A program made the position numbers and the translations under genes. Below are positions 3,911-12,344 of a stretch of DNA of 64,000 nucleotides, in pieces. Every line of letters starts with the position of its first letter. Positions within the stretch are counted from its first letter, which is position 1. Origin of the DNA: Paenibacillus herberti (lineage in GTDB: Bacteria; Bacillota; Bacilli; Paenibacillales; Paenibacillaceae). A model generated the notes under the pieces. That model did not search any database and was not told the origin of the DNA. It worked only from the letters and a program-made list of their open reading frames with translations. The stretch covers positions 62,001 through 126,000 of the forward strand of contig NZ_NMUQ01000002.1 in NCBI RefSeq assembly GCF_002233675.1. Direction: 5' to 3'.

Positions 3911-4102
3911 ATGAAATCCTCCCTATGTTCTTCTTCCATTAGGGTATGTGGAATTCATAGAATAGTGTGGACTCAGTCTAACGTGATAGACACAGCCTAG
4001 AAAGCTTAAGGCTCCCTCTCCATCAATATCCGCACTACCCTCCAATGTAAACCGGATGTTATAATGACCGAGTTGACATTTCGAAGGAAGGCGGTTTCTC
4101 CC

Positions 4103-4528
4103 ATGACCATCAAGCTTCGCGGGCATCATCTGTTATGTCTGCTCGGATACCGGGGCAAGGGGTACTCGGCCGACTTTTGCGTTAATATGACACAGGTGTA
4201 CGAAAAGCTCCGCCAAGAGCCACAGACGAAAATCGAGCTGATCGTTGGCCCCGACGACATCTGCGCTGCATTTCCGACTGATCAGGTATCTCATTGTCGG
4301 AACGACAGCGTCTACCGCAAAGACGAGGAGATTGCCGAGCTCATCGGCATTGCAGTGGGGGAAGCCTGGCCATGGGCCGCTATTTGTGAGGCCGTTGCAG
4401 CTCGCGTACAGCCAGGCGATGTCGCTTCCATTTGCCGCGACTGCCAATGGGAGCCTTACGGCATGTGCCGGGAAGGCGTCGCGCACATCCATAACAAGCC
4501 GCATTTGCGGAAGCTGCCGGAAGCTTGA
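4103..4528 (+). CDS. DUF1284 domain-containing protein
   Basis: Cytosolic protein of 141 residues in the DUF1284 family, recognised by the N-terminal signature KLRGHHLLCLLGYRGKGYS and by Cys residues in the C-terminal half (ICRDCQWEPYGMC) that look like metal ligands. The molecular function of the family is not established. I use the ATG at 4103, which gives the usual MTIKLRGHH start and has GAAGGAAGG upstream; an in-frame ATG at 4064 would add 13 residues unlike the family. The last 70 bases of the gene are tandemly repeated immediately downstream, out of frame. Confidence 0.75.
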   Translation: MTIKLRGHHLLCLLGYRGKGYSADFCVNMTQVYEKLRQEPQTKIELIVGPDDICAAFPTDQVSHCRNDSVYRKDEEIAELIGIAVGEAWPWAAICEAVAARVQPGDVASICRDCQWEPYGMCREGVAHIHNKPHLRKLPEA

Positions 4529-4599
4529 CGGCATATGCTGGGAAGGCGTCGCGCACATCCATAACGAGCCGCATTTGCGGAAACTGCCGGAAGCCTGAT
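4458..4599 (+). repeat. 70-bp tandem duplication of the DUF1284 gene 3' end
   Basis: The segment 4458-4527, which encodes the last 22 or so codons of the DUF1284 gene, is repeated at 4528-4597 with only a few substitutions. For example, GGGAAGGCGTCGCGCACATC occurs in both copies. The period is 70 bp, not a multiple of three, so the second copy lies after the stop codon and is not translated in frame. It reads as a recent local duplication. Confidence 0.85.
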
Positions 4600-4625
4600 G
4601 CCCATAAGCTTCTAAATACAAAAAC

Positions 4626-4650
4626 AAGCTCCTGCCATCAGCCGGGAGTT
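4626..4650. repeat. Hairpin repeat, left member of a pair
   Basis: AAGCTCCTGCC ATCAGCCGGGAGTT here is a near copy of the hairpin at 5033-5058, in the same orientation. The stem is weaker than in the right copy. The two copies bracket the 52-bp palindrome array at 4781-5000. Confidence 0.5.
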
Positions 4651-4780
4651 ATCCGTTGGATAGCCCTGCATGTGTATCCTGCTTATCTCTGTCCGCTACT
4701 TGCCTTTCGGCAGTGCTTCAACCACAATCTCCACCCATTTGGTCGGGCTATACAGCGATGTCGTTAGTATGGATATGGTC

Positions 4781-5000
4781 CTGCATAATTTGTATGATTT
4801 TTCACTCAAAGTTCATTCGGGCCGTGCTGATTTTCTGGATTTTATACGATAAATCGTACAAATTAGCTGGGCATAGACGACGAAAGCTCGGTTTTGTATG
4901 TTTTATCACACAAAGTGTTGAAAAGCGGCGGCTCCAAACCGTTTTTTGTACGATAAATCGTACAAAAAAAGTTTCGTTGGCCCACGAAATCCAGGTTCAA
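4781..5000. repeat. Non-coding element, copy A: four 22-bp palindromes with exact 52-bp period
   Basis: Four related 22-bp palindromes begin at 4789, 4841, 4893 and 4945, each exactly 52 bp after the last. The best copy (4945-4966) has 10-base arms TTTGTACGAT and ATCGTACAAA around AA; the others carry one to three mismatches. The 30-bp intervals between them differ from one another. The whole block aligns with 11891-12110, intervals included: I count 29 differences in the first 200 aligned bases. No open frame with a ribosome site is present. The rest of the gap 4529-5185 holds the hairpin pair and a low-complexity stretch, with no gene I can support. Confidence 0.85.
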
Positions 5001-5032
5001 TATAGGTGTCTATAAAGTTTCTCTACACACTA

Positions 5033-5058
5033 AAGCTCCCGCCATCAGCCGGGAGCTT
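5033..5058 (-). terminator. Probable terminator hairpin of the sugar ABC operon
   Basis: AAGCTCCCG and CGGGAGCTT form a 9-bp stem around a short loop, 128 bp beyond the stop of the last permease gene read on the minus strand. The following T-run is weak (TTTAG), so termination strength is uncertain. Confidence 0.5.
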
Positions 5059-5185: not shown

Positions 5186-5992
5186 CTACTTCACCGACCC
5201 CAGCATCCCCTGCACAAACTGCTTCTGCAACAGGAAGAAAATCAACAAAGTTGGAAGCGTCGTTACAACGATGGCCACCATAATGACCCCATAATCCGGG
5301 CTATACGAGGATGACAGAGATGACACAACGAGCGGCAGCGTTTTTTTATCCTGCGACTGCAGGGCAATGAGCGGCCACAGGAAGTTGTTCCAGTAATTCA
5401 TGAATGTAATAATCGCCGCCGCCGCATAGGTCGGCTTCATCGTTGGCATATACACTCTGGCGAACAGGCTCCATTCGTTCAGCCCGTCTACACGTCCCGC
5501 TTGCAGGAGCTCCCGCGGGAACGACTTCGTATTTTGCATGAAGAAAAAGATCATAAACGCTGTTGTAATGCTGGGCAGTATGGCCGCTGCCGGCGTATCA
5601 AGCAGCCCCATCTTGCTGAACATGCGGAACAACGGAATCATAATTGCGGCAAATGGCATCATCATCGAGAGCATAAGCACGCCGAACAGGCGATCCTTGC
5701 CCCTTGTACGATAAATTTCGAATCCAAACCCAGCCATCGAGCTCAAAATCAATGTCGCAATCGTACCAACAACCGCAATCAACGTAGAATTCCAGAAAGC
5801 TGTGCCGAGATTAGTCATCTCCAGCAGCTTTGCCACGTTGTTAGAAAACTCAGCACCGAAGCTGAACTTGCCCTTGATTACTTCTGCGGAACTGTTGGTC
5901 ATGCCGATCAACATCCAGGCAAAGGGGAATAGGGAAACGATCGACACGGTGATCAAAAAGAAATGGATTGCTCCTGTACCAAACTTCTTCAT
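5186..5992 (-). CDS. Carbohydrate ABC transporter permease (MalG/LacG type)
   Basis: Inner permease subunit of a CUT1-type sugar importer, 268 residues with about six hydrophobic helices. The cytoplasmic coupling loop EAA motif is visible as ELLQAGRVDGLNEWSLFARVYMP. The N-terminus (IHFFLITVSIVSLFPFAWML) is a first transmembrane helix. Its start overlaps the stop of the upstream permease by 4 bases (ATGA type), and the two genes plus the binding protein form a minus-strand operon. No ATPase gene is present, so the importer probably uses a shared MsmK/MsmX-type ATPase encoded elsewhere. Confidence 0.9.
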   Translation of the reverse strand: MKKFGTGAIHFFLITVSIVSLFPFAWMLIGMTNSSAEVIKGKFSFGAEFSNNVAKLLEMTNLGTAFWNSTLIAVVGTIATLILSSMAGFGFEIYRTRGKDRLFGVLMLSMMMPFAAIMIPLFRMFSKMGLLDTPAAAILPSITTAFMIFFFMQNTKSFPRELLQAGRVDGLNEWSLFARVYMPTMKPTYAAAAIITFMNYWNNFLWPLIALQSQDKKTLPLVVSSLSSSYSPDYGVIMVAIVVTTLPTLLIFFLLQKQFVQGMLGSVK

Positions 5993-11785: not shown

Positions 11786-11890
11786 GGGTGATTCTACAAC
11801 TGCTCCCTTCGCCTGTTTCAGCCTTGTCGGGGCAACTGCGGCTTAGATAGGCCTAAGTCGTAATTAAGTCAGTCTCGTATTGATGAGGGC

Positions 11891-12110
11891 ATGCACATTT
11901 TGTATGATTTTTCACTCAACCCGTATTCGGGCTGTGCTGATTTTTTGGATTTTGTACGATAAATCACTCAAAATGGCTGGGCATAGGCGACGAGAGCTCG
12001 GCTTTGTATGTTTTATCATACAAAGTGTTGAAAAGAGGCGGCTATAAGCCGGATTTTATACGATAAATCGTACAAAAAAAGTTGCGTTGCCCGCGAAAGC
12101 CGAGTTCAAA
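11891..12110. repeat. Non-coding element, copy B: four 22-bp palindromes with exact 52-bp period
   Basis: Homologous to 4781-5000 in the same orientation, offset 7110 bp, with a one-base indel near the right end. Palindromes begin at 11899, 11951, 12003 and 12055, again exactly 52 bp apart. It sits in the 560-bp gap between the sensor kinase gene and ddh. Apart from this element the gap (11786-12344) shows no gene I can support; the ddh promoter must lie in its last 230 bp. Confidence 0.85.
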
Positions 12111-12344
12111 CCCTATTCAAATCAAATCAAATCAAGAGGAGAAGCACGCCCCGATGATCCTGCACAGCGCAGCCATTTTCTTCTACTATTTCGACAATAA
12201 AATTAACCCTGGCCTGATAGGCTGCATGATAATAGGCCCGAACACCCCCTCCGTAATCTTACATTTGACGTCAGTTGTCTACTAGATTATCCTCCTATAA
12301 TAAGCCTGCTATTAATCTAGGCTACTATGGAGAGGGGCAACAAC

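Follow-up and report, generated by a model that had tools for sequence, protein, structure and literature searches.

A palindrome array of Paenibacillus herberti as a probable orphan set of DNA sites from a Paenibacillaceae gene-repeat system

The window analyzed here, a 64,000-nucleotide stretch of the Paenibacillus herberti genome, carries an intergenic array of four 22-bp palindromes, which is probably a dispersed and orphaned copy of DNA sites that belong to a Paenibacillaceae gene-repeat system. A protein family of ~226 residues adjoins arrays of 22-bp palindromes with a period of 51-52 bp at about half of the loci examined. Arrays are also scattered elsewhere in the genomes, more of them between convergent than between divergent genes, and their palindromes and spacing are kept while the intervals drift. 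Most likely, the array represents a row of predicted binding sites for this partner family.

Geometry and dispersed copies of the array

A site search recovered the palindromes at the starts given in the original prediction (4789, 4841, 4893 and 4945) with a step of exactly 52 bp. They occupy positions 4789..4810 (P1), 4841..4862 (P2), 4893..4914 (P3) and 4945..4966 (P4), none being assigned to a strand. Their consensus, TTTGTAYGAWWWWTCRTACAAA, is identical to P4 and differs from P2 at one position and from P1 and P3 at two each; P1 and P3 are imperfect palindromes. The window contains eight such sites, compared to a mean of 0.01 and a maximum of one in dinucleotide-preserving shuffles. As predicted, the array is non-coding: it lies between a DUF1284 gene (4064-4528, + strand) and an ABC permease gene (5186-5992, - strand), and thus between convergent genes. 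Genome matches and alignment delimit a 234-bp core (4767..5000, + strand) common to the dispersed copies in the P. herberti genome (G000). On either side of this core is a terminator-like hairpin on the + strand, the left one at 4617..4648 and the right one at 5024..5055, forming a direct repeat with 84% identity over 32 bp. A second copy of the array, at 11877..12109 of the window (C7:73877-74109, + strand) with palindromes at 11899, 11951, 12003 and 12055, is located between two + strand genes, 3' of a histidine kinase gene. It is followed on its 3' side by a relic of the leader hairpin of the partner gene (12140..12164; C7:74140-74164, + strand), which has the same motif as the leaders of the genes themselves. 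Separately, the DUF1284 gene has a direct duplication of 70 bp at its 3' end (4449-4588, 90% identical), and the - strand at 840-2726 encodes a protein of 628 aa in which a Schlafen-group-3 helicase domain was identified (PF09848, E 2e-92).

The original prediction knew of no named element with this design; that the design is a lone one is not supported. The P. herberti genome contains 18 near-full copies of the 234-bp core, plus fragments and one shortened copy (L003) that lacks exactly two units, and of 295 Paenibacillaceae genomes at least 48 have arrays found by a profile built from 14 copies; since few candidates were scored per genome, the array counts are minima. The core copies have two kinds of arms. 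Type A, found in the window copy, L002 and L003, is flanked on both sides by the terminator-like hairpin, as identified by direct-repeat search in the window and by eye in the others. We also observed that type-A copies (window 4617-4648 / 5024-5055; L002, L003, L024 and L029) appear as if inserted between hairpins with a long duplication. Type-B arms carry terminal repeats similar to TTACTACTTAGGTACC, and among the 22 copies searched (16 from G000 and six from its relative G007), both ends are within two mismatches in five (L005, L006, L014, L017 and L042), with perfect 8-bp duplications flanking L006 and L017. On arm comparison, the window copy is without the type-B element ends. From transposase-like frames seen by eye, the miniature element of the type-B copies may be of the IS66 kind. 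The proviso that the array might be a fragment of a known transposon or MITE is partly borne out, because some G000 copies sit inside a miniature element that has terminal repeats and is associated with 8-bp duplications; however, arrays are also found without the element, including in other genera. The element would account for part of the spread in G000, not for the array itself.

The palindromes and their spacing are better preserved than the DNA around them. In the genus relative G005, which has nine copies in unrelated flanks, identity is 84-92% in the palindromes, compared to 35-62% in the adjoining 15 bp and 24-26% in the flanks; in G000 and G007, the palindromes are just slightly better conserved than the intervals. 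A spacing of 52 bp is seen in 104 of 111 steps from 37 copies. The original prediction held the 30-bp intervals to be unrelated sequence and yet conserved between copies, which needs a correction: each interval of the window array is kept among the dispersed copies, and the three intervals within a window-type array are mutually unrelated, with a neighbor identity of 0.34 vs 0.29 after shuffling in five G000 copies. In five of six genomes tested, neighboring intervals are direct repeats of each other (identity 0.49-0.77 vs 0.33-0.39 shuffled), the sixth genome being the window's own, and the 52-bp step persists where the intervals are unrelated. For G254, we rejected complementary alternating intervals, as inverted neighbors reach 0.34 vs 0.33 shuffled; it has a 104-bp super-unit instead.

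Palindromes with up to two mismatches number 60 in G000, 33 in G005, 42 in G007, 186 in G110, 42 in G203 and 73 in G254, compared to none in G001 and G002 and 0-1 in the reversed-sequence control. The longest arrays have 21 units (L065) and 30 units (L098). Scanning 84,980 species yielded at least 120 stretches, and among the matches listed all titles (L097-L216) name Paenibacillus, Cohnella or Paenibacillaceae. Steps among the matches listed are 52 bp in 556 of 652 cases, 51 bp in 57 and 53 bp in 19, and 57 of the 120 listed arrays of at least three units contain exactly four palindromes. The consensus of 634 sites reads TTTGTAYGA-N4-TCRTACAAA. The 234-bp core has no match among the phage or plasmid records searched, nor do the palindrome pattern and the partner protein in the viral contigs searched. 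A two-palindrome pattern was found in one of 398 Bacilli genomes, a figure to be read with the fact that the exact pattern also misses the window's own genome. Clustering of 279 proteins encoded next to dispersed arrays yielded just a few small groups, which resemble common families. A search of the open-access literature by title found no description of the array or the partner protein. At P. senegalensis loci, for example L168, L135 and L161, a second short tandem repeat similar to TTTCGCATACA adjoins many array copies.

The linked gene family

Proteins of the ~226-aa family combine a nuclease-like part, for which the evidence is weak, with a winged helix-turn-helix. To define the linkage set, 84 loci were tried; seven could not be placed and nine duplicates were dropped, leaving 61 genes inside and seven outside the Paenibacillaceae. 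An array of at least three units lies within 1.4 kb of 34 of the 61 distinct placed Paenibacillaceae genes, compared to 0/61 after shuffling; it is upstream of 12 and downstream of 26, four of them having both, and the detector found no array at the other 27. In real-DNA controls, the detector passed one of 30 tRNA-Ala loci, which is one of the gene loci, and two of 45 window tiles, which are the two known arrays. Outside the Paenibacillaceae, none of the seven placed genes passes the same detector; with wider spacing limits one locus does (L336, steps 61 and 51), and palindrome-like repeats are seen by eye 3' of the gene in L335, L336, L340 and L341. Among the best 30 loci, 27 genes were placed, of which 21 have an array of at least three units (shuffled 0/27), with palindromes of the types TTTGTACGA, TGTATATGA, TGTATGCGG, TGTATGCCG and TGAACATGA. 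Lower-scoring members have arrays at five of 20 loci, of the types TCAAGTAGTC, TGAACGGTA and ACAACGGTA.

The family is present in 241 of the 295 Paenibacillaceae genomes and, across Bacilli, in 46 of 398, 20 of them outside the Paenibacillaceae. A high-scoring gene (E below 1e-80, a cut-off picked after the scores were seen) occurs in 51 genomes. These comprise 32 of the 48 with the window-type palindrome, compared to 19 of the remaining 247 (Fisher p 4.6e-18, kinship ignored); 16 of the 48 array genomes, G000 among them, are without it. Palindrome types change with the protein groups. Over 33 loci, a set that excludes L266 for its stop codon and L268 for having no array, both of which are included in the 61-gene linkage count, palindrome distance correlates with helix-turn-helix distance (r 0.81, 0/5000 permutations). 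As the N-terminal part correlates almost equally (r 0.78), the correlation alone cannot point to the helix, and common descent may explain it.

Within the P. herberti genome, the family search found no high-scoring partner gene. Its single family member (C7:277361-277993) is followed 27 bp on by 17 units of TCAAGTAGTCAAAGCTACTTGA with a 51-bp period, a palindrome that does not occur in the 64-kb window. In G007 the cognate gene is retained just after an array, but with a stop codon. The leader hairpin of the partner gene, allowing up to three mismatches, was found at ten places in G000, two in G005, two in G045 and three in G155, all of which adjoin an array or array fragment by position. These leader hairpins beside dispersed arrays indicate that the type-B copies come from DNA upstream of a partner gene.

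Leaders just before the start codons (L264-L313) share a small, covarying hairpin: the pattern GRCR-AAGMA-YGYC, derived from the first leaders, is present in 43 of 48 genes. Both variable pairs are standard in all 43 (GC 23, AT 18 and GT 2 for one; GC 29, AT 13 and GT 1 for the other), and in 38 of the 43 the last hairpin bases also open a terminator stem before a T-run. The overlap of hairpin and terminator looks like a candidate transcription attenuator.

In five species, a tRNA-Ala(GGC) gene lies beside arrays (L028, L074, L228, L163 and L169; 112 loci scanned). The order tRNA, array, hairpin/terminator, ribosome site and gene was found in six tRNA-Ala(GGC) loci examined at full length; L028, L163 and L169 carry an intact partner gene, which is split in L074 and broken in L238 and L239. 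We rejected the idea that tRNA-Ala(GGC) is the ancestral site in general, since of 30 such loci in one genus three have strong arrays (L238, L239 and L263), with weak pairs in L236 and L261. In L242, L253, L254, L259 and L262, a segment of ~200 bp 3' of tRNA-Ala(GGC) closes with a repeat of the 3' end of the tRNA, resembling a small integrated element associated with the tRNA.

The partner is probably an undescribed nuclease-like DNA-binding protein. It has no match in NCBIfam and weak matches only in PADLOC, PHROGs and Pfam. HTH_24 reaches a best E of 4e-5 among 15 members, four of which fall below 0.1, and MarR-type repressors in the PDB match the winged helix-turn-helix with E 0.005. Other profile matches are DUF559 (PF04480; 14.6 bits vs a cut-off of 20.6; best E 0.0028, four of 15 members) and MTES_1575 (best E 0.022, matches in three or four of 15 members); sequence search found no solved relative of the nuclease part. 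The structure model is weak, with a mean pLDDT of 60.4 and values below 50 for residues 142-181, and modeling the N-terminal part a second time gave a worse result (pLDDT 49.7). Structural comparison of model residues 31-141 by VIA, in which Z 7-8 can be background, gave I-Bth0305I (Z 9.8), NGO0050 (8.9) and Vsr (8.9) as the best matches. TnsA appears among the rows of both Foldseek and VIA, and for this weak model no Foldseek match reached an E of 0.001. At the lysine of the ExK motif, the protein group of the window palindrome has M where other groups have K; of the 34 array-linked genes, 24 are of the M type and 10 of the K type, which makes catalysis doubtful.

Mechanism and alternative explanations

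Sites in double-stranded DNA are the best reading of the palindromes. The original prediction of in-phase dimer sites agrees with their outlasting the intervals in G005, with the constant 52-bp step and with the linkage to a winged helix-turn-helix gene. The winged helix-turn-helix protein would bind each palindrome as a dimer, and at one site per five helical turns the dimers would lie on the same face of the DNA, so that the array would bear a regular row of protein. Much less certain are two further steps: the nuclease-like part might nick or cut at or near arrays and thereby lead to their duplication and spread, by analogy with what is thought of RAYT for REPs, and the leader hairpin overlapping the terminator might hold the protein scarce. 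In G000, which is without a high-scoring cognate gene, arrays may have been copied further by the miniature mobile element.

Gene orientation bears on an alternative in which the sites benefit the host: a protein on in-phase palindromes would block readthrough or organize supercoils, and the nuclease-like fold would be a mere scaffold with no role in spreading. Of the arrays in six genomes, 87 in all, convergent gaps hold 30, divergent gaps five and tandem gaps 40, with 12 at contig edges, compared to 22 convergent, 47 divergent and 99 tandem among other gaps of at least 120 bp; genes were called by a simple hexamer method, and P. senegalensis supplies 36 of the 87 arrays. The preference for convergent gaps speaks for this alternative, yet mobile-element-like repeats (BOX and IS elements) favor them likewise (PMC3049150). 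The G005 palindromes stay conserved after dispersal, and the missing ExK lysine in the window-palindrome group makes a binding-only role a real rival. The patchy presence of the sites, with none in two genus relatives vs 60 in G000, speaks against this explanation, which we regard as unlikely but worth keeping in view.

Far less probable is that the arrays are neutral debris of tandem slippage and passive copying by mobile elements. Such an origin would fit the G000 copies inside the terminal-repeat element, two of them with perfect 8-bp duplications, the direct-repeat intervals of long arrays and the loss of exactly two units from L003. It fits poorly with palindromes conserved amid random flanks, with arrays that lack the miniature element in other genera, and with the linkage to one gene family whose palindrome types differ.

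The least probable alternative of all is that the palindromes act at the RNA level, forming hairpins in a small RNA or in 3' untranslated regions: P1 pairs with P2 and P3 with P4 in a consensus fold, and a same-strand terminator follows the array in gene loci and some copies, but neither the P1:P2 and P3:P4 pairing nor the pairing of the palindrome arms covaries above shuffles, and terminators 5' of the array (43) are not rarer than those 3' of it (30) in 106 arrays among the matches listed. The idea that array and terminator form a small RNA was dropped, as the conserved terminator turned out to be the leader of the downstream partner gene. Rfam has no match in the window at gathering scores, and at E up to 0.5 its only matches at eight array loci are a T-box and a tRNA, both outside the arrays. 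Positions 7 and 16 form a Watson-Crick pair at 31 of 134 sites in P. senegalensis and 25 of 78 in G254, but at 51 of 54 in P. nanensis. A strand test by wobble pairs gave no decision, because tandem copies are not independent. Type III toxin-antitoxin systems and plasmid centromeres were further readings considered.

Comparison with known systems

The reading of the window array as an orphan copy of protein-binding sites invites comparison with REP/RAYT systems. There, as far as the available parts of PMC2817692 and PMC3733652 describe them, short palindromes occur many times per genome, downstream of genes, and the partner gene lies next to its own repeats, which differ with the protein. The present arrays are alike in all these features except that the likeness of a partner gene flanked by its own palindromes (34/61) is one of analogy, the protein here being unrelated. 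They differ from REPs in having a 4-bp A/T-rich center, in forming direct rows with a period of 51-52 bp, and in a consensus without a GTAG or CGTC tag. RAYT itself (Y1 transposase, PF01797), found in four of ten genomes, was rejected as the mobilizer, since there is none in the array-rich G110, G203 and G007 and it is present in the array-free G002. We tentatively put forward, as a possibility somewhat short of likely, that the system is an independently arisen counterpart of REP/RAYT in Bacilli, in which a free-standing protein with a winged helix-turn-helix and a Vsr-like, homing-endonuclease-like domain would recognize, maintain and spread its own 52-bp-phased arrays, with a leader attenuator and several groups per genome, each with private palindromes. 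RAYT is the one partner gene described, in the available parts of the cited work, for the extragenic palindromes common in bacteria, and a second kind seems to appear here. New would be the other protein, the strict helical period and the several matched protein-palindrome types. If true, the function and spread of such repeats could be tested by swapping matched protein-palindrome pairs, and with the rows of sites, in-phase protein arrays on DNA could be studied in a natural setting.

Similar to the present arrays, pneumococcal BOX elements are modular, with a variable number of tandem internal units, and are over-represented between convergent genes (PMC3049150). However, BOX elements have boxA and boxC ends, and the available part of that account describes no partner gene; the two are set apart by description. 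For the protein, the predicted N-terminal fold (model residues 31-141) may resemble nucleases of the Vsr, I-Bth0305I and DUF559 type, and TnsA combines a nuclease with a winged helix; the sequence similarity of the partner is below the Pfam cut-offs where shown. Finally, the arrays recall CRISPR in their palindromic repeats of ~22 bp and intervals of ~30 bp. In line with the original prediction, which argued against a CRISPR, the intervals are direct repeats in other genomes and in most arrays, rather than unique spacers, and the profile libraries used do not identify the linked gene as a cas gene.
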